This document shows, piece by piece, positions 5,169-30,646 of a stretch of 64,000 nucleotides of DNA. A program made the translations under genes and the position numbers. The DNA comes from an uncultured SAR86 cluster bacterium (GTDB lineage Bacteria > Pseudomonadota > Gammaproteobacteria > Magnimaribacterales > AG-339-G14). How positions within the stretch are numbered: the first letter of the stretch is position 1; each line of letters starts with the position of its first letter. The stretch covers positions 1 through 64,000 of the forward strand of contig CACHCY010000002.1 of the NCBI GenBank assembly GCA_902578495.1. Reading direction: 5' to 3'. The notes under the pieces are model-generated. The model was not told the DNA's origin. It saw only the letters and a list, made by a program, of their open reading frames with translations, and searched no databases.

Positions 5169-6365
5169 TTATTCTTGATCAGACTCTAGTCTATTGAGCC
5201 ATCTTTTAATTATCTCATCAGTGTGTTCACCTAATTTTGGTGCACGAACAAAGCTTTCATTATGATTAGAAATTTTTACCGGATTTCCTGGAACTTTGAC
5301 CGTTTCTCCGCTGTCTTGCAGGAGTTCTACGATCATATTTCTTTTCAAGAGATCTTCATCTTGAAAAGTTTCCGAAAAATTGTTGATGGGTCCACACGGC
5401 ACCCTGTGTTTCTGTAATAAATCTATCCAATACTCTGTTGTGTTGTTGGAAAATTTCTCTTGTAAGGCTGCATCGATTGTTTCTCTATTTTCTAACCTGC
5501 CCTTTCTGTTTTTGTTCTGTTGAGTATCTAGATGCTGTAATTCCATAGCCTCAATCAAGCTAGGCCAAAAGTTTTCTGCCACCACTGCAACTTGAATAAA
5601 ATTATCCTGAGTTTTATACAGGTTGAATGGTGCATGATTCATATGTTGATTTCCAATAGGATCAGGATCTTCTCCCGACAAAAAATGCATGGTTGCCATA
5701 TAAGTCAGCAGGCTTACTTGAGTATCTAACATGGAAATATCGACGTGCTCTCCGTAATCGTAGATTTCTCTGGACCGAATAGCACTTAAGATTCCAATAA
5801 TAGCGTAAAGACCTGCACCAAGATCAGCTATAGGGATTCCCGATTTAACTGGGTTATTTTTGTCAGCGCCAGTAATCGACATGGCGCCCGAATATCCTTG
5901 CACAATGTTGTCATAAGCGGGACGATTGATCTCAGTATCGCCAAAACCGCTTATAGAACAAGTGATTATTTTGGAATTTACTTTCGCTAAGCTATCGTGA
6001 TCAATTCCTAATCTTTTGATTACTCCTTGACTAAAATTATCAACAACCACATCGGCTACTTCTACCAATTTCAAAAAAAGTTTCTTTCCTTCATCGCTTT
6101 TAAGATCTAACTCAATACTTTTCTTATTTCTAGCAAGAGTTAGATGATAGGCACCGATACCGTCATGCGAATATTTTGGATCATCTTTAAGAAGGTTTCT
6201 GGTGATGTCTCCTGTTTTAGGCTGCTCAATTTTAACAACCTCAGCTCCCAAATCAGCCAACACCATAGTCGCGTAAGGTCCTGCAAGCATGTGGGTTAAA
6301 TCTAAGACTTTTATGCCTTTTAGAGATTGCTTCAATTTAGTAATTTGTTTTATCGTCGACAGCAT
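5169..6365 (-). CDS. CaiB/BaiF family III CoA-transferase
   Basis: A 398-residue formyl-CoA-transferase-type enzyme that moves CoA between carboxylic acids. The family opening GIKVLDLTHMLAGP, the ADLGAEVVKIE strand and the catalytic-aspartate region IADLGAG are visible. Two starts are possible: the ATG at 6365, overlapping the MaoC gene by 29 bp, or a TTG just after the MaoC stop giving MKQSLKG, which fits the family N-terminus better. Beside a MaoC hydratase and a CitE-like lyase it would activate a dicarboxylate such as itaconate or mesaconate; that substrate is inferred. Confidence 0.88.
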   Translation of the reverse strand: MLSTIKQITKLKQSLKGIKVLDLTHMLAGPYATMVLADLGAEVVKIEQPKTGDITRNLLKDDPKYSHDGIGAYHLTLARNKKSIELDLKSDEGKKLFLKLVEVADVVVDNFSQGVIKRLGIDHDSLAKVNSKIITCSISGFGDTEINRPAYDNIVQGYSGAMSITGADKNNPVKSGIPIADLGAGLYAIIGILSAIRSREIYDYGEHVDISMLDTQVSLLTYMATMHFLSGEDPDPIGNQHMNHAPFNLYKTQDNFIQVAVVAENFWPSLIEAMELQHLDTQQNKNRKGRLENRETIDAALQEKFSNNTTEYWIDLLQKHRVPCGPINNFSETFQDEDLLKRNMIVELLQDSGETVKVPGNPVKISNHNESFVRAPKLGEHTDEIIKRWLNRLESDQE

Positions 6366-6855
6366 TCCCTGTAGTTGGGATCAATGCCGAGCGCTTATAG
6401 GAAGCTACAACCACACCGTCTTGATTAGTGCCAGTCGTTTGAACAGTCACTATGCCGCAGTTTTTTCTCGATTCTGACAACCTTTTCTCTAAGACCTCTG
6501 ACTCCGCATACAAAGTATCGCCCACAAAAAGAGGATGAGGTAAAACAATGTCAGTCCACCCTAGATTTGCAATGGCTTTTTGACTTACGTCGCTAACGCT
6601 CATTCCAACCATAACAGCCACAGTAAAAGTGCTGTTAACCAGTGTCTTTCCAAATTCCGTTGCCTTCCCGTATTCTTCGTCAAAATGAAGCGGATGAGTG
6701 TTCATGGTCAGTAAGGTAAACCAAGTATTATCCGATTGAGTTATGGTGCGACCTGGTCGATGCTCATAAATATGACCAATTTCAAAATCTTCGAAGTACC
6801 TGCCGAAAGTTTCTCGATATCTGTTATTGCCAAGATCTTTAATACCTTTAACCAT
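6337..6855 (-). CDS. MaoC-family hot-dog hydratase
   Basis: A 172-residue enoyl-CoA hydratase of the MaoC hot-dog fold. It opens with GRYFEDFEIG, followed by the catalytic-region pattern NTHPLHFDEEY, where the family's Asp/His dyad sits at Asn/His. Similar proteins hydrate itaconyl-CoA or mesaconyl-CoA. The ATG overlaps the stop of the upstream CitE-like gene as TAATG, implying coupled translation. In the three-gene set it would add water to the CoA thioester made by the transferase, giving the substrate of the lyase. Confidence 0.85.
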   Translation of the reverse strand: MVKGIKDLGNNRYRETFGRYFEDFEIGHIYEHRPGRTITQSDNTWFTLLTMNTHPLHFDEEYGKATEFGKTLVNSTFTVAVMVGMSVSDVSQKAIANLGWTDIVLPHPLFVGDTLYAESEVLEKRLSESRKNCGIVTVQTTGTNQDGVVVASYKRSALIPTTGNAVDDKTNY

Positions 6856-7685
6856 TAATCGTCATCTTCTCCTAGCTCTAATCTCAATCTCATTGCTTCA
6901 GCAATTGGTTCATCAACCATTTTACCATCGACTTTGATAACGCCTGATCCACCGATCTTTTCGTATTCTTTTAGGACCTTCATCGCTTCTTCTTTTTCTT
7001 CTTTGGTTGGCTCAAAAGCTTTGTTAATGATATCTACTTGGGAAGGATGAATACAAGCTTTCCCGGTAAAACCCATATTTTTTACCGCAATGGCTTCTTG
7101 TTCACATCCCTCAGGATCATCAAGAAAGAAAAAAGGAGCATCGATCGTAAATAAATCATACATTGCTGCTGCAATAGCGACTTTAGATCTTGCATAAAGC
7201 AGTGGCTCCCAAGCTAATTTAGCTTTAAGGCCTGCGGAAAAATCTGCTGCACCAAAAAATAATCCTCTGACTCCTTTGAAAGATGCTATTTCATCGACAG
7301 TAGCTACTGCTCGAGGAGTTTCTATCAGTGGAATTAAATCATCTTCAAATGCAATCTTGGTAGCAAGCGTTGCCAGCGAATCAAAACTTTGAATCTTTGG
7401 CAAAATAATGGCTTCTATTTGTTCTTGATAATCTGAGATCAAATCTATGTCTTCTCTTCCTAAATCTGTAATTGGATCGTTTACTCTGACAAAAACCGGT
7501 TTAGAAAATTTATTTCCGTCTTTGAAGTTGTTGATTAAATCTTCACGAGCTTCTTTTTTTAAGTCATCCGGACAACCATCTTCCAAGTCAATGATAAGAG
7601 CATTAACGTCGGTTCTTTGTATATCTTCAAGATTGTGCATTTTATGGCCTGGCACAAACAGGTTGGACTTAAATCTGTATAACAT
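6855..7685 (-). CDS. HpcH/HpaI-CitE family CoA lyase
   Basis: A 276-residue TIM-barrel lyase of the citrate-lyase beta / malyl-CoA lyase group. It shows LFVPGHKM at the start, DLEDG (Mg2+ region, about 32-36), FVRVND, the metal-ligand Glu of LIETPRAV, the Asp of GAADFSAG and GKACIHPSQV near the end. These enzymes cleave (or make) malyl-, methylmalyl- or citramalyl-CoA. In an itaconate-type pathway it would release acetyl-CoA and pyruvate. Its start overlaps the dsbA stop (TAATG), tying the catabolic genes to the dsbA transcript. Confidence 0.88.
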   Translation of the reverse strand: MLYRFKSNLFVPGHKMHNLEDIQRTDVNALIIDLEDGCPDDLKKEAREDLINNFKDGNKFSKPVFVRVNDPITDLGREDIDLISDYQEQIEAIILPKIQSFDSLATLATKIAFEDDLIPLIETPRAVATVDEIASFKGVRGLFFGAADFSAGLKAKLAWEPLLYARSKVAIAAAMYDLFTIDAPFFFLDDPEGCEQEAIAVKNMGFTGKACIHPSQVDIINKAFEPTKEEKEEAMKVLKEYEKIGGSGVIKVDGKMVDEPIAEAMRLRLELGEDDD

Positions 7686-22161: not shown

Positions 22162-22452
22162 ATGAAAAAAGGATATTGGGTCGCAAAAGCAAACGTTATT
22201 GATGGAGATAAGCAAGGCGCCTACGGTAAATTGGCGGAAGAAGTCATAGCAAAATTTAACGGTAAATTTTTAGTAAGAGGCGGCGAGCAAATCACAAAAG
22301 AAGGTACAGAATTCATGCGTAATGTAGTCGTCGAGTTTCCGTCCTACGAAATTGCCTTGCAAGCCTACGAAAGTGACGATTATCAACAAGCCCTTGTTGT
22401 TCTCGATGGCGGAGCGGAGAGAGCTTATGCCATTGTCGAGGGTTATGAATAA
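22162..22452 (+). CDS. DUF1330-family protein
   Basis: A 96-residue ferredoxin-like protein typical of DUF1330: KGYWVAKANV, a lysine/tyrosine helix, GKFLVRGG and VVVEFPSYEIALQAYES. The fold is related to the ABM superfamily; members have no settled function. It lies three bases after the MazG-like gene and overlaps the esterase start by 8 bp. Confidence 0.88.
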   Translation: MKKGYWVAKANVIDGDKQGAYGKLAEEVIAKFNGKFLVRGGEQITKEGTEFMRNVVVEFPSYEIALQAYESDDYQQALVVLDGGAERAYAIVEGYE

Positions 22453-23455
22453 ATCTTTTCTTTTACTTGTCTTTCTTTCGATAGTGTTGAGCTGTGGTGA
22501 ATCGTCTAATTCAGATAATAGCAGCTCTATTCCCTTAGAAACTGGGTTTAATCCAAAGTGCTCAACTTACAGCGCAACCATCACTATTTATCCGTCTCCA
22601 TACGAAGGCACTCTCAGAAGATGTATTGCTTCCGATAGGCAGTTTTACATATACCTTCCTGAGAACTATTCTGAGGTTGGATCGCCGTATCCTGCGATGT
22701 TTAGTTTGCACGGTTATACCAGCACTGCCCTGACCAATATGAGTTATACAGGATTTATGAAACAAGCCGACATCAATGACTTTGTGGTTATTTATCCCCA
22801 AGGTTTGGTTCATGAAACAAAGGGAGGCACACATTGGAACATTGATGAAATTGGTCCAGGAAACTCAGTCAACAGTATTGAATTTTTAGAATCCGTTTTG
22901 GATTGGGTCGGTCAGAATTACAATATTAATTTAAATCAATTTTACTCCGCCGGAATGTCAAATGGCGGTTTTATGAGCTATCACCTCGCTTGTAATATCA
23001 ATTCGAAAATTGCAGCCGTTGCCTCTGTTACCGGATCAATGAGTGTTTTTAGTTACGAAAACTGCAACGCTCAACCAACTTCCGTAATGCAAATCCATGG
23101 GGCTGTGGACACAGTTGTTCCTTATGATGGCACGGTTACCGCTTCTGGAGTAGGTTTCAAGGGCATCGAGGACGTCATGGGGTTTTGGTCAAATAACAAC
23201 GTTTGTAATCTTGAACCTTCTATCGCAACGCTATCTGACATTTCTGGAAATGGCGTAAGCGGAACGCATAGAATTTATTCTGAATGTGCTAACGATGTTG
23301 AAGTTCAGCTGTATCTATTAGAAGGAGTTGGCCACGACTGGCCTGAAAATTACGAAGTCGATGACAATGGGGGTACTGGTCAGTACGACATAAATTCTGC
23401 AGAAATTATTTGGGAATTTTTTAATAATTTTGATCAGCTCGGAAGGAAACAATAA
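22445..23455 (+). CDS. Secreted PHB-depolymerase/feruloyl-esterase-like lipoprotein
   Basis: About 336 residues. The start at 22445 opens a lipoprotein signal ending VLSCG. The alpha/beta-hydrolase core is of the LpqC/CE1 type: MFSLHGYTS (oxyanion region), nucleophile elbow GMSNGG (about 170), Asp in HGAVDTVVPYDG and the catalytic His in GVGHDWP. Such enzymes cleave polyester or plant phenolic esters. Extra cysteines suggest periplasmic disulfides. Its start overlaps the DUF1330 stop region, so it is coupled to the upstream genes. Confidence 0.85.
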   Translation: MNKSFLLLVFLSIVLSCGESSNSDNSSSIPLETGFNPKCSTYSATITIYPSPYEGTLRRCIASDRQFYIYLPENYSEVGSPYPAMFSLHGYTSTALTNMSYTGFMKQADINDFVVIYPQGLVHETKGGTHWNIDEIGPGNSVNSIEFLESVLDWVGQNYNINLNQFYSAGMSNGGFMSYHLACNINSKIAAVASVTGSMSVFSYENCNAQPTSVMQIHGAVDTVVPYDGTVTASGVGFKGIEDVMGFWSNNNVCNLEPSIATLSDISGNGVSGTHRIYSECANDVEVQLYLLEGVGHDWPENYEVDDNGGTGQYDINSAEIIWEFFNNFDQLGRKQ

Positions 23456-24770: not shown

Positions 24771-25721
24771 ATGATGTATTTAAAGAAAATTATACCTTGT
24801 TCGCTCGTTGCCATATTGCTGTCTTGCAGTGAAGTTAAACTTCCAGACTTTGATGTTTATGCTGAAGGTCAAAAAGAAGTTTTAGATGCTTTTGGATTCA
24901 CCTTCGATCCTTCTTTGATAAGGCATGAAACGATTAAAGAGGACTTCCATGTAATTTTTGGTTTCGGTGGAAATATCTTAATTTCAATTGGGGAAGATGG
25001 CGTGCTTGCAATTGATTCACAGTTCCCGCAAATCTATGAGGCTTTGTTAGCAAAAATAAGATCTCTTGGCGGCTCGGGCATCAATCATATTATCAATACG
25101 CATTGGCATTTTGATCATGCAGATGGAAATAGAGCTTTTGGTCCCCTAGGTGCAGAAATTTATGCGCATATAAATTCTCTTAATTATATGAAATCGGGAG
25201 CTTCGATTAATTTAGTCGGCGCCGTTTATCCGCAGCAACCCTATGAAAAAGAAGCATTAGCGACCGTAACTTTTACAGATACGCTTGATATAAATTTAAA
25301 CGGTCAGACCATCAAGTTAATGAATTTTGGCCCTGCGCACACCACGGGTGATACAGTTATTTATTTTAAAGAAGCCAATATTATCCATACCGGAGACTTA
25401 ACGAACTTAGATGGACTGCCATTTATCGATGCAGATAACGGCGGCACCCTTGAAGGGATGATTTCATCCTTATATAGAGTACTTGAGTTGATCGATGACA
25501 ATACTATAGTTGTTCCAGGACACGGACCTGTAGCTGATAAAGACACAATTAAAAGCTTCTTAATGAAGCTTGTTGCAGTCAACAACAGAATAGATGCTTT
25601 AGTTGATGAAGGTAAATCAGGGCAGGAAATTCTTGAAATTAATCCCGCAAAAGAGATCATTGAAGAAGTTCCTTTTCCTATATTAGTGAACAGAGCTCTT
25701 GTCGGAAAGGGTTTACTCTAA
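24771..25721 (+). CDS. MBL-fold metallo-hydrolase lipoprotein
   Basis: A 316-residue metallo-beta-lactamase-fold hydrolase with a lipoprotein signal (LLSCSE). The zinc site is complete: NTHWHFDHADGN (HxHxDH), a His in GPAHTTGD, an Asp in IHTGDLTN and a His in VPGHGPV. Similar proteins are generic periplasmic hydrolases; the spacing resembles subclass-B3-like and PQQ-associated members. Substrate unknown. It is the last plus-strand gene before the exported-protein cluster. Confidence 0.88.
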   Translation: MMYLKKIIPCSLVAILLSCSEVKLPDFDVYAEGQKEVLDAFGFTFDPSLIRHETIKEDFHVIFGFGGNILISIGEDGVLAIDSQFPQIYEALLAKIRSLGGSGINHIINTHWHFDHADGNRAFGPLGAEIYAHINSLNYMKSGASINLVGAVYPQQPYEKEALATVTFTDTLDINLNGQTIKLMNFGPAHTTGDTVIYFKEANIIHTGDLTNLDGLPFIDADNGGTLEGMISSLYRVLELIDDNTIVVPGHGPVADKDTIKSFLMKLVAVNNRIDALVDEGKSGQEILEINPAKEIIEEVPFPILVNRALVGKGLL

Positions 25722-25789: not shown

Positions 25790-26530
25790 ATGAAAAAAAT
25801 AATACTACTTATGGTTCTAATTGGCCTACCAATTAGTCTTGTTGCACAGGAAGTGCCCGATCCTCTCACTGCTGGATATAGTCAATGTAAATTCTTACCC
25901 GGTAAAGGTATGGAATCTCTTGAAGAGTACATAGAACTTTTCAATGAGGAGCTTGATAAAGCAGGCATTGAGATGAGCTCAGCAATGTTGATGCCGTTTT
26001 TCAAAACCAATATTTCAGAATACGATGTTTTATGGGTAAACGCTTGGGAAGATAATACTCAAGCAGGTAAAGCAATGGATTGGTGGCTTTCTGGTGCTGG
26101 AGAAAAATCTAGAGATGCTTGGCCAATGTTTTGCGATACTCAGGTTCTTACTTATCAGTGGTGGATGGAAATGGTTACCGACAGAGATGATTTTCAAGGT
26201 CAAAATTTCAGTGCATCCTATTACACATGTAATTTAAGTGACGATAAAAATCTTAGTGATGCATATCTAGCATCTAATGCCGAACTCAAGCTAGCCCACT
26301 CAAAAGGATCTAAATCTAATTCTGCTTTAATTAGACCTGCATCTGGAACCAACGTTGGTGAGTTTCCTTTTGATTTTGTTAGGTTATTTACGAATCCTTC
26401 TTTTGAAAACTGGGGTGAAGCTGTCGACGGTTGGTACGATGATGTTAGAGGCTCAGCAGAAAGTAACAAAGTAAGAGATACTTACGATTGTAATGGCTCA
26501 ACTTTATTTACTGGAAGGATAGTTCGCTAA
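25790..26530 (+). CDS. Exported protein with two ferredoxin-like repeats, unknown function
   Basis: A 246-residue secreted protein: signal peptide to about LVAQ, then two similar halves. Each half starts with a Cys-containing strand (YSQCKFLPG; YYTCNLSD), has a long helix, and has an aromatic strand (LWVNAW; DFVRLF) followed by a Trp-rich helix (AMDWWLSG; WGEAVDGW). This is the layout of a duplicated dimeric alpha/beta barrel (ABM/NIPSNAP-like) domain. A GGAG ribosome site and a terminator flank it. No named family is recognised. Confidence 0.6.
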   Translation: MKKIILLMVLIGLPISLVAQEVPDPLTAGYSQCKFLPGKGMESLEEYIELFNEELDKAGIEMSSAMLMPFFKTNISEYDVLWVNAWEDNTQAGKAMDWWLSGAGEKSRDAWPMFCDTQVLTYQWWMEMVTDRDDFQGQNFSASYYTCNLSDDKNLSDAYLASNAELKLAHSKGSKSNSALIRPASGTNVGEFPFDFVRLFTNPSFENWGEAVDGWYDDVRGSAESNKVRDTYDCNGSTLFTGRIVR

Positions 26531-26539
26531 TAAAACCAT

Positions 26540-26574
26540 AAAAAAAAGGAAGGCAGTTGCCTTCCTTTTTTTTA
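26540..26574. terminator. Bidirectional terminator
   Basis: A7, GGAAGGC-AGTT-GCCTTCC, T8: a 7-bp GC-rich stem with A/T tracts on both sides, placed between two convergent exported-protein genes. It should terminate in both directions. Confidence 0.92.
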
Positions 26575-26584
26575 TGAGATTTAC

Positions 26585-27286
26585 TCAATTAAAAGTCATC
26601 ACTCTAAAAGTTGTGTTAACTGAAATTATTTCTCTGATGGGGGCAACTTCTCTGGAGAATTTTGCAAAAGCATCGCTTGCAAAACTTACCGTAGTGCCCT
26701 CGCCGAGCTCTCCCATTGAAGATGCAGTAACGTAGGCAAAATGAGTTGAACCATTGATTGACCCTGAAATGATTCTATTGATCCCATAATTTCCTGTAAC
26801 TAAACCCTCTTCTTCTTGCGTGGCCATCATTTTTTTATAAGAAGCAACGTATTTAGCCTCGTCGGCTACTTTAATGCCCCAAAACATAATGACATTCGAT
26901 TCAGCTGAATTTCCGCCAGCTACAATTGGGGACGATAACATTTGCCACTCAGGCTTTGTGATCTCAGCTCCTCTAGCTAAAAATCTTTGGGCTGCTGCAC
27001 AGGTATTAAAAATCTCTGCAGTTTTGTCCAAATCTTTTCCGCTTTTATAGTTGAAAGCAACACCGTGTGTTGCAGGATTACCACCGTTAAAATGCAAATC
27101 ATTAAGGCTGATAACAGCTGGAATTTCTTTTCCACAATCAGATTCCATCAAGGTTTGAAGATTCTGTACCACAGCAGCAGGATTCTCAGTAGAGAAACCA
27201 TAATGTGCGGTCATTGGCGGAGAAAGATGTCCATCTGCAAAAGCATTAACAGATAAAAGACCAAACAATAAATAAATAGCTTTCAT
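26585..27286 (-). CDS. Exported protein, ABM-like fold, unknown function
   Basis: A 233-residue secreted protein: signal peptide to AFADG, then an N-terminal half with YGFSTENPAAVVQNLQTLM and a C-terminal half with VIMFWGIKVADEAKYVASYKKMM. Each half suggests a strand-helix-strand ABM-like unit. No catalytic signature is visible. It is five bases downstream of the next exported gene, so three minus-strand genes (28700 to 26585) probably form one transcript ending at the terminator at 26540-26574. Confidence 0.6.
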   Translation of the reverse strand: MKAIYLLFGLLSVNAFADGHLSPPMTAHYGFSTENPAAVVQNLQTLMESDCGKEIPAVISLNDLHFNGGNPATHGVAFNYKSGKDLDKTAEIFNTCAAAQRFLARGAEITKPEWQMLSSPIVAGGNSAESNVIMFWGIKVADEAKYVASYKKMMATQEEEGLVTGNYGINRIISGSINGSTHFAYVTASSMGELGEGTTVSFASDAFAKFSREVAPIREIISVNTTFRVMTFN

Positions 27287-27291
27287 GACTT

Positions 27292-27984
27292 TTACTTAGT
27301 GTAAATGATCTGACAATCTTCGTAAGTGTCACTTACGGTTTCTGCGATTGCTACAAGCTTCTGATAAATTGGAGCCCAGCTTGCTTGACCAGCAAAGAAT
27401 TGATCAACAAGACTTCCGTGCTCACCGGCAGATCTAGCCAAACCTCTTACCATTAGAGTATTTTCATGTTCTCCACCACCGAAGGATTGGAAAACCCCAA
27501 GCTCGAAATCTGGATTTGTTTTCTTAATCGCAGATTCTAGGGCAGCCATAGTCACAACATACTCTTGTACATCTTCAGGCTGAACAATGACTCTTGTAAC
27601 CCTTTCAAAACCCGGATTTAAAACAAACGGTTTTAAAGGCTTCCAAAAAGAAGAGTACATCGGCGTTCTCAATTTTTGCAAAGCTCTTGGTGAACTGTAT
27701 GGATCAAATGAATTTGCATTTTCCATGGCATCTTCCATGTTTCCGTATGCTGACCATACAAACATTTCGCCCATGTAACGATTTCCAGATCTGGTCACAC
27801 AAGTACCGGCAACATCAGGATTCTGTGCTCCTAATAATTGTGAGTTCTTTTTCAAGAAATCAATGTACTCATTTGGATTTTCAGCCTTAACGTGAAAAGT
27901 TGTAAAGGCTCCATCTCCAGGGGCAACTTGCCCGAAAGATATGCTAGTTATTACCAGCATAAGTAATAGATATAAGTGTTTCAT
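27292..27984 (-). CDS. Exported ABM-like duplicated-domain protein (paralogue A)
   Basis: About 230 residues from the ATG at 27984, chosen because GGAGGT lies just upstream and MKHLYLLLMLV begins the signal peptide. Two repeats are apparent: GAFTTFHVKAENPNEYIDFL...EMFVWSAYGN, and RVTRVIVQPEDVQEYVVTM...LMVRGLA. A Cys near each end (GTCVTR; EDCQIIY) may form a disulfide. It is clearly paralogous to the next gene upstream, sharing SPRALQKLR, SSFWKPLK and SDTYE-CQ. Function unknown. Confidence 0.65.
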   Translation of the reverse strand: MKHLYLLLMLVITSISFGQVAPGDGAFTTFHVKAENPNEYIDFLKKNSQLLGAQNPDVAGTCVTRSGNRYMGEMFVWSAYGNMEDAMENANSFDPYSSPRALQKLRTPMYSSFWKPLKPFVLNPGFERVTRVIVQPEDVQEYVVTMAALESAIKKTNPDFELGVFQSFGGGEHENTLMVRGLARSAGEHGSLVDQFFAGQASWAPIYQKLVAIAETVSDTYEDCQIIYTK

Positions 27985-28001
27985 AATTACCTCCATGTAC
28001 A

Positions 28002-28700
28002 CTATTCAGCAGTATAAATAACCTGACACGATTCATACGTATCAGACACAATTTCGTCTGCCAGCGAAACTAATTTTAAGTAAAGTGCAGTCGATGCCGC
28101 TCCAGCATAAGCTCTATCAATGATATCACCTGCATCTTCCGAATTAGCATGAGAACCTCTAACGTGATACTCCTGCTCTGAGTAACCTCCACCAAAGGGT
28201 TGAAAGATACCAACACTAAAGTCGTTACCTTCAGCCTTTACAGCCTTTTCAAACTCCATCGCTACAGCCATATACTCGTCTAAATTTTCTCTAGCGATCT
28301 TGACTCTGTTAAGCCTATCAAAAGAAGACGGACGGATTGGAAAGTCTTTTAGCGGTTTCCAAAAAGTTGAGTATTTAACTTCCCTCAATTTTTGTAGAGC
28401 TCTTGGCGCTGAGGCAGGATCATAAGAATCTCCTCCTTTCATAGCGGCAGCCATAGAGCTGAATGCATTCCATACAAACATTTCACCGGTGTATGAATTT
28501 CCTGTTCTAGTTACGCATACTCCAGCTACATCAGAACCTACAGCTTCAAAAGCTTGAGTATTATCTTTTAAGTAATCGATGTACTCTTGAGGATCATCTG
28601 TTTGAACATGTAAGGTTGAAAAAGCTCCAGCCGGAGGACCATTTTGGGCAACAATAAAGCTAGATAAAACCAGCATTGCCGTAAGTTGTAAAAATTTCAT
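28002..28700 (-). CDS. Exported ABM-like duplicated-domain protein (paralogue B)
   Basis: A 232-residue paralogue of the preceding entry: same signal peptide and order of motifs (GAFSTLHVQTDDPQEYIDYL, CVTRTGNSYTGEMFVWNAF, PRALQKLR, STFWKPLK, SDTYESCQVIY). Conservation over the whole length with a 17-base spacer shows a tandem duplication. No active-site signature is seen; the conserved pieces are aromatic/acidic strands and two cysteines. It is the first gene of the minus-strand trio. Confidence 0.65.
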   Translation of the reverse strand: MKFLQLTAMLVLSSFIVAQNGPPAGAFSTLHVQTDDPQEYIDYLKDNTQAFEAVGSDVAGVCVTRTGNSYTGEMFVWNAFSSMAAAMKGGDSYDPASAPRALQKLREVKYSTFWKPLKDFPIRPSSFDRLNRVKIARENLDEYMAVAMEFEKAVKAEGNDFSVGIFQPFGGGYSEQEYHVRGSHANSEDAGDIIDRAYAGAASTALYLKLVSLADEIVSDTYESCQVIYTAE

Positions 28701-28779
28701 ATTTCTCTCCTAAAAATTTTTTACGGCCTTTAACTATAGTGAAAAATCTTCTGTTATGGAATGTTAAAATGAAACATCT

Positions 28780-29595
28780 ATGAAAACTAATTATTGGCAA
28801 GTTTGTTTCGCGATTTTGGCGTCTGTTTTTTTGTTTAGCTGTCAAAGCGAACCCATTGAAAACGAAGATAGATTGATAATTGATGTTGAGGCAATAGACG
28901 ATGTTTTTCCTCAGACTCAAGGCATAAATATCTACAAGACTTGCTCAAAGGGAAAAGATTTTTCAAATAAAAATTTAGAGGTCTTACTGAGGGGGTGGAA
29001 TGAAGTAATGGAAGAATTAAAAAATCCTTCGATAAGATCATCTTTATTTAAAAAAAATAGATCCGAAATTCTCATTTGGAGTGAGACATGGAATGATAAT
29101 GACACAAGAAATGAATTCGAAGCAATGTGGCAAGAGCTATATGATGAAAGGTGGAGCTCTAGATTCAATACAGTACTAACATGCAATGAAGAAATTGAAG
29201 AAAAAACAGAAATAGTTTTCTCCAAAGAAGCTGATGTGGAATGGTTGGGTCTTCCGCCGCATTATTCAATGTTTGTTTCTTGCAATTTCAAAGATGATAA
29301 CGATCTTAATTTAGCTTTAAAAATTCTCTCAACCGTGGATGATGCAAATCCTGTAATTTTCTCGAATTCACATCGCTACAATGTCGAAATTACCGATGGG
29401 AATAGATTGATTTTTTTAGGCAATGAAAGATTTGATTTCATTTGGAGTAACTTTTGGTTAAATAAAAAAGAACGTGATGAGACTAAGAAGAGGATGGACG
29501 AGAGTTTTATTTTTGAAAATTTATCGCTCTATTTCAATTGCAATATCGATGAATTTTCATACGAACCCATAAAATCGATAATTCAAGATATTTAA
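28780..29595 (+). CDS. Lipoprotein with two ABM-like repeats, unknown function
   Basis: A 271-residue lipoprotein (leader ends FLFSC). The mature part repeats the pattern of the 25790 gene: a Cys-bearing strand (YKTCSKG; FVSCNFKD), a helix, a strand with two tryptophans seven residues apart (ILIWSETWND; FIWSNFWLN), and a final Cys strand (LTCNEE; FNCNID). It is divergent from the minus-strand exported trio and starts in a 79-bp spacer. It is one base upstream of a phosphotransferase gene. Function unknown. Confidence 0.6.
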   Translation: MKTNYWQVCFAILASVFLFSCQSEPIENEDRLIIDVEAIDDVFPQTQGINIYKTCSKGKDFSNKNLEVLLRGWNEVMEELKNPSIRSSLFKKNRSEILIWSETWNDNDTRNEFEAMWQELYDERWSSRFNTVLTCNEEIEEKTEIVFSKEADVEWLGLPPHYSMFVSCNFKDDNDLNLALKILSTVDDANPVIFSNSHRYNVEITDGNRLIFLGNERFDFIWSNFWLNKKERDETKKRMDESFIFENLSLYFNCNIDEFSYEPIKSIIQDI

Positions 29596-29596
29596 A

Positions 29597-30646
29597 ATGT
29601 TGGATCATCCAAATCAGTTAACAAAAGAATTTATTTCGAATTTGTTTAATCGAGAAGAATCTGATTTAGATAGTTTTGACTTTGAACCGGTAGGTTCAGG
29701 CCAAGTTGGAGATTGTTATAGAGTCAACCTGAATTGGAATGACATAAAATATTCTCCTGTTTCATTGATTGCAAAATGCCCTGCTGAAGATTCGTCAAGT
29801 AGAGATACCGCAAGAAATCTACATTTATATGAAATAGAAGTATCGTTCTATCAACACTTGTCTGCTAGATGCTCTGCAAGAGTTCCAGAGCCTTACTTTG
29901 TAGATTACGATCCAAAAACGAGTGATGGTATCTTGTTGCTCGAGGATATGCAGCCTGCCAAACAGATTCCTCAGATGGATGGTTGTTCCAGCGATGAAGT
30001 TGCGATGGTTTTAAAAGAAGCCGCAGCACTTCATAAAAGTTATTGGAACGATGAAACTTTACTAACTTATCCCTGGCTTACCTACGGTATTAGCGAGGAA
30101 AGGAAAAAATTTGCTGCTGAGCTTCTTCCTGCTGTCTACCCTGAGTGGAAGAACAGGTATGAGGGAAGAATTTCAAAAGATATTTTTGAAATGGGAGATA
30201 CTTTATTGGCTAACTACGATAAGTATGCTGATGTAAGAGAAGGACCTATGACTTTAGTGCAAGGTGATTTGAGGCTGGATAATCTCCTCTTTACTGATAG
30301 AGATAACAGAGCAATTCTTTTAGATTGGCAAACTGCAGCAGTCGGCTTGCCTCTGAATGATATTGCTTATTGCATATCGACAAGTTTTCGAGATCCTAAC
30401 GAAAGAGCCAATAATGAGAATGATTTAGTTAAGGGATATTACGATTTACTTCAGGTTAGTGATAGTTACAGTTTTGAACAGGCTTGGGATGATTACAGAC
30501 GCGCTTCATTTGTGGGCTTTTTAATGGCTGTTTTATCTGCAATGATTGTAGAGAGAACAGACCGAGGTGATGAAATGTTTGCTGTGATGGCAGAAAGATC
30601 AGCCTGGCAAGCTTTGCACTTAGATGCGTTGTCATTTTTAGATTAA
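29597..30646 (+). CDS. Kinase-like phosphotransferase (APH/EcKinase-like)
   Basis: A 349-residue small-molecule kinase fold. GSGQVGDCYRV near 30 is the nucleotide loop, the Lys of LIAKCPA is the likely ATP lysine, VQGDLRLDNLLF (about 219-230) is the catalytic loop and LLDWQTA carries the Mg2+ Asp. The usual HGD of the catalytic loop is QGD here, while Asp and Asn are kept. Relatives phosphorylate aminoglycosides, choline, steroids or acyl-CoA-linked substrates; the substrate is unknown. selO follows after six bases. Confidence 0.82.
   Translation: MLDHPNQLTKEFISNLFNREESDLDSFDFEPVGSGQVGDCYRVNLNWNDIKYSPVSLIAKCPAEDSSSRDTARNLHLYEIEVSFYQHLSARCSARVPEPYFVDYDPKTSDGILLLEDMQPAKQIPQMDGCSSDEVAMVLKEAAALHKSYWNDETLLTYPWLTYGISEERKKFAAELLPAVYPEWKNRYEGRISKDIFEMGDTLLANYDKYADVREGPMTLVQGDLRLDNLLFTDRDNRAILLDWQTAAVGLPLNDIAYCISTSFRDPNERANNENDLVKGYYDLLQVSDSYSFEQAWDDYRRASFVGFLMAVLSAMIVERTDRGDEMFAVMAERSAWQALHLDALSFLD

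Follow-up and report, generated by a model that had tools for sequence, protein, structure and literature searches.

The locus at 25790-29595 raises the question of whether five exported proteins encoded side by side make up a single system, and what such proteins might do for a SAR86 bacterium. The stretch of DNA analysed, hereafter the window, comprises 64,000 nucleotides from an uncultured member of this cluster. The features of the locus are the following.

25790-26530, plus strand: P0001, family I exported protein, 246 aa
26536-26577, no strand: long inverted repeat flanked by runs of T/A, likely a shared bidirectional terminator of P0001 and P0002, as judged from sequence
26585-27286, minus strand: P0002, family IIb exported protein, 233 aa
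27292-27984, minus strand: P0003, family IIa exported protein, paralogue of P0004, 230 aa from the ATG
28002-28700, minus strand: P0004, family IIa exported protein, 232 aa
28780-29595, plus strand: P0005, family I lipoprotein, 271 aa

P0001 and P0002 are convergent, and the inverted repeat between them consists of 19 pairs followed by a T run. The minus-strand trio (28700-26585) is closely spaced, with gaps of 17 and 5 bases between ATG-initiated genes, and P0004, P0003 and P0002 probably form one operon; its middle gene, P0003, separated by 5 bp from P0002, also has an upstream GTG at 28002. P0005 is divergent from the trio. Given the convergent pair, the packed trio and the divergent P0005, the locus comprises three transcription units or more. 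Five other genomes of the genus preserve this layout, with IIa present in two or three copies, and contain P0001 orthologues at 88-97%. All five genes are under purifying selection (dN/dS 0.03-0.13 relative to genus-level orthologues).

Several neighbours are preserved across the genus as well. Upstream lie genes for two exported proteins, an esterase/PHB-depolymerase-like protein (22352-23455) and a metallo-beta-lactamase-fold lipoprotein (24771-25721, 68 bases before P0001). Downstream, a gene for an EcKL/APH-type kinase (29597-30646) starts 1 base past the P0005 gene, and SelO comes next (30653); the order P0005-kinase-SelO is also maintained.

Sec-type signal peptides were read at the start of P0001 to P0004 (residues 1-19, approximately, in P0001; ending in AFA in P0002), and the lipobox LFSC of P0005 predicts a lipidated Cys21. 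The preliminary description had proposed that all five proteins are exported, that two members of the trio are paralogues and that each protein is built of two units, and these points were borne out. P0001-P0004 would be secreted to the periplasm, and P0005 would be anchored to a membrane, probably the outer one.

Iterated profile searches separated the five proteins into two families with no overlap, P0001 and P0005 in family I, and P0002, P0003 and P0004 in family II. Within the latter, the paralogues P0003 and P0004 (51% identical) represent group IIa and P0002 group IIb. In profile comparisons made without signal peptides, the P0005 group matched the P0001 group at 99.9% (E 1.5e-32), IIa matched IIb at 92% (E 6e-7), and non-lipoprotein family I matched IIb at 79% (E 1.5e-5), with reversed controls under 1%. 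A value of 97% for family I versus IIb, obtained with signal peptides included, was discarded. A common origin of families I and II, as one deep family, is suggested by these profiles, a conclusion that we grade cautiously because the score drops to 79% once the signal peptides are removed. The earlier view of five proteins of one kind therefore holds for the fold and the two-unit design, but the sequences form two families. The claim of one undescribed system is not supported as it was stated, in view of these two families, the three or more transcription units and a P0005 gene that abuts a kinase gene.

In every group compared, the two halves of the protein are related. Half-against-half profile comparison gave probabilities of 98.9% for family I (E 1e-17), 99.0% for IIb (E 7e-18) and 96.9% for the lipoproteins (E 1e-10); the signal was weaker for IIa (81.8%, E 1e-5), and reversed-column controls reached 0.1-3%. 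Unit 1 spans residues 26-125 and unit 2 residues 139-244 in P0001, versus 26-116 and 125-230 in P0004 (all approximate). Single-unit exported relatives of family I, about 125-135 aa long, are found in several genera; in the same genome as the window, one of them (L178 5762-6166) directly precedes a two-unit gene (6187-6960). Another genome (G095) carries family I halves in two adjacent reading frames (L182 6340-6705 and 6734-7099), which may be either a natural split or a frameshift. Duplication followed by fusion is a standard route to single-chain, two-unit alpha+beta barrels (PMC4835899), and the two ferredoxin-like units of each chain would have been fused after an old gene duplication.

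With homologues drawn from related loci only, AlphaFold2 models of P0001 (pLDDT 86, pTM 0.80) and P0004 (pLDDT 72, pTM 0.68; a moderately confident IIa model, three of its five models being poor) both contain a strand-helix-strand-strand-helix-strand (beta-alpha-beta-beta-alpha-beta) unit, twice per chain; the other three proteins were assigned this fold by homology. For both models, PDB 2pgc ranked first in Foldseek and VIA-align (Z 17.0, 3.1 Å over 194 residues; Z 16.5, 3.1 Å over 198), with matches spanning nearly all of the mature protein. It was followed by sulfur oxygenase reductase, putative monooxygenases and Cld/HemQ/DyP. With the IIb profile, 2pgc was again the best PDB sequence, in register, at an E value of 0.044 that is not significant alone. 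Structure (IIa and family I models) and sequence (IIb) thus lead by separate routes to the same relative. The ferredoxin-like, ABM/DUF1330-type fold proposed at the outset agrees with these models. By analogy with 2pgc, the two units would pack sheet to sheet, like the two subunits of dimeric ABM-type proteins.

Cysteines are distributed in a way that argues for disulfide bonds. The pairs are 33/115 and 147/234 in P0001, 55/135 and 168/254 in P0005, and Cys51/Cys96 in P0002, while Cys62 and Cys225 are conserved in P0004. Of 67 family I sequences, 47 have both Cys33 and Cys115 and the other 20 have neither, none having a single one (p 1.7e-17), and in IIb, Cys51 and Cys96 occur together in 19 sequences, are both lacking in 22 and are never single (p 4e-12); the sequences being related, these p values are upper bounds on the evidence. 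Cys147/Cys234 is found in 67/67 family I sequences, Cys62/Cys225 in 38/39 IIa sequences, and the lipoprotein pair Cys55/Cys135 is together in 25/28 and missing as a pair in 3/28. Because the cysteines are strictly paired, together or both absent as disulfides predict, we infer that P0001-P0005 are locked by disulfides. In each unit of P0001, the paired cysteines sit on the first and fourth strands. In IIa one lies on strand 2 of the first unit and the other on strand 4 of the second, so that, if the model is right, a Cys62-Cys225 bond would clamp both units together in a barrel.

Both families are widespread in SAR86. Among 75 genomes of the order, at least 85% complete, 72 carried family I (253 matches) and 65 carried family II (153 matches), a mean of about 3.4 and 2.0 genes per genome; together this is about 5 genes per 1.2-Mb genome, and about ten in the genome of the window. 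Family II was found in 0 of 271 genomes from class and phylum samples outside the order, and family I yielded one two-unit exported protein (G286) and one single unit (G629). The proposal that these proteins centre on one lineage is upheld, with relatives outside the order being rare rather than absent, since sampling was partial and the first-look filter lowers sensitivity. No relatives turned up in two scans of viral contigs.

The two families of the five proteins, both expanded in SAR86, are repeatedly found as neighbours. At 16 of 61 family II loci, which are not independent, a family I gene lies no more than 1.5 kb away, and these cases include different arrangements from three or more SAR86 families. 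In another SAR86 family, three to five exported I/II genes stand in tandem (L126, L130, L131, L132, L134) at a fixed site, with a MATE-family gene on one side and FG-GAP/beta-lactamase genes on the other. Family I genes of two SAR86 families adjoin a gene for an exported PF04199 'putative cyclase' (L147 12414-13349; L187 6495-7427, the latter assigned by sequence similarity only).

Conserved residues distinguish the groups. His74, His182 and Gly168 are invariant over 18 divergent IIb proteins, and the two histidines occupy equivalent beta3 positions, at the start of strand 3, where they align when the halves are compared. IIa and family I are without this histidine and have almost no invariant residue except Cys and Gly; Asp79 and Asp195 of family I align with each other, at the beta3 place matching the IIb histidine.

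Tentatively, we favour the view that these proteins are single-chain, disulfide-locked envelope barrels that bind small hydrophobic or aromatic compounds, IIb being perhaps enzymatic. The alpha+beta barrel fold serves very different jobs and therefore predicts little about function by itself. Binding of hydrophobic compounds is nevertheless the leading proposal, and IIb the best candidate for catalysis, because of the fold, the export, the IIb histidines and published SAR86 metabolism, in which genomic evidence points to the breakdown of lipids, steroids and aromatics, some of it periplasmic (PMC11582366). The small hydrophobic ligand of the preliminary description, unsupported as it was stated, becomes plausible from the fold together with this metabolism. 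As dissolved organic matter is taken up, small molecules of hydrophobic or aromatic character would be held in the predicted cavity of each unit. IIb, whose units each carry one invariant histidine where strand 3 begins, would be a candidate cofactor-independent or metal-using enzyme; IIa and family I are more likely binding proteins, or may use other residues (the aspartates in family I). A link with TonB-dependent receptors, which would suit a part in uptake, was considered and rejected: they adjoin IIb and family I genes in several genomes, yet over ten genomes 10 of 41 clusters had one within 7.5 kb, against 6.7 expected (P 0.12), which is not above chance.

It is possible, if on the unlikely side, that all five are non-enzymatic envelope proteins, either small-molecule chaperones or structural or quality-control proteins of the outer membrane or periplasm, tandem-expanded without a common pathway. 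The scarcity of invariant residues besides Cys and Gly in IIa and family I would fit, as would the variable number of tandem copies (three IIa in L142 versus two in the window), the lipoprotein forms and the lack of a fixed enzyme neighbour. However, the invariant His74 and His182 of IIb, and the paired aspartates of family I, would be unusual in a purely structural protein. An extension of the hydrophobic-binding proposal, in which a large, lineage-specific set of exported, disulfide-locked single-chain barrels serves as an envelope system, capturing hydrophobic dissolved organics through paralogues with different cavities, and IIb members chemically modify them outside the cytoplasm, is doubtful.

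A role as ABM/Dabb-type oxygenases or cyclases that need no cofactor and act on aromatic or polyketide-like substrates beyond the cytoplasm is, in our view, distinctly doubtful. The ABM-type fold, the invariant IIb histidines and top matches that include putative monooxygenases, the anthrone-oxidase-like 5f9p and PenE are consistent with such activity, and so may be the exported PF04199 cyclase encoded beside family I genes in two families of SAR86; yet no sequence match to the ABM or Dabb Pfam families accompanies the fold. Heme or iron handling, in the manner of Cld, DyP, HemQ, IsdG, HmoB or sulfur oxygenase reductase, is improbable, and heme binding by P0001-P0005 unlikely: heme/iron double-barrel structures do fill the match lists behind 2pgc, and many of the TonB receptors of SAR86 are predicted to take iron compounds (PMC11582366), but known heme-binding alpha+beta barrels carry the ligand histidine on a helix (PMC4835899), whereas no helix histidine is conserved at 85% in the alignments of any of the four groups and the IIb histidines are at the start of strand 3.

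SAR86 accounts for up to 6% of the microbes in the surface ocean (PMC11582366). That a streamlined genome yet keeps a conserved exported family of this size suggests that it probably matters to feeding. A SAR86 isolate now exists, so that location and function of families I and II can be tested.

How do these proteins compare with known ones? Searches of Pfam, NCBIfam and PDB sequences with the five proteins returned nothing significant, and none of the five passed a curated threshold, in keeping with the initial impression of no nameable family. The literature searched contained no description of families I and II, nor of 2pgc, DUF6854 or NIPSNAP in SAR86, and this SAR86 gene family of exported two-unit proteins appears to be undescribed. 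The NIPSNAP, ABM and Dabb Pfam families gave 0 matches at E 0.1 with the five proteins and 42 members of families I and II. DUF1330 (PF07045) shares the unit fold by prediction, and unit 1 of P0004 matches it weakly (16.2 bits, E 0.013, below the cut-off of 23 bits), but it has one unit of roughly 95 aa, versus two in P0001-P0005. Its ordinary, single-unit cytosolic form, the unit fold found paired in these proteins, is encoded 3.3 kb before the locus (22162-22452, 91.7 bits). This gene agrees with the earlier statement that ABM, NIPSNAP and DUF1330 proteins are usually single-domain and cytosolic; as a contrast with the present proteins that statement goes too far, since two-unit single-chain barrels are well known (PMC4835899).

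Among these, sulfur oxygenase reductase, Cld/DyP/HemQ and HmoB form a barrel from two fused ferredoxin-like units (PMC4835899) and match the window models at Z 8-17, with 5-12% identity; they show no sequence match, and their heme-type helix histidine is unconserved in the window proteins. The likeness to sulfur oxygenase reductase, known for its mononuclear iron site and cysteine persulfide core, is a structural match alone. The nearest relative is 2pgc, a marine metagenome protein that is a single-chain alpha+beta barrel of two ferredoxin-like units, as P0001-P0005 are predicted to be. A fragment of it matches Pfam DUF6854 (PF21614) twice, at 1e-31. None of the five window proteins matched DUF6854 up to E 10; one P0002 orthologue (L007 785-1480) scored 30.9 bits, above the cut-off of 27, and another (L016) 21.9 bits, below it. 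Family I and IIa are without detectable sequence match to DUF6854 or 2pgc. Another DUF6854 match examined looked cytosolic and had a single unit of some 100 aa. In contrast to 2pgc and DUF6854, the window proteins are exported and have paired cysteines. The fold and the two-unit design are already known; the export, the strictly paired cysteines and the SAR86 expansion look new, and as far as our tools can tell, this exported, disulfide-paired, SAR86-expanded form is a new form of the known single-chain alpha+beta barrels, close to DUF6854.
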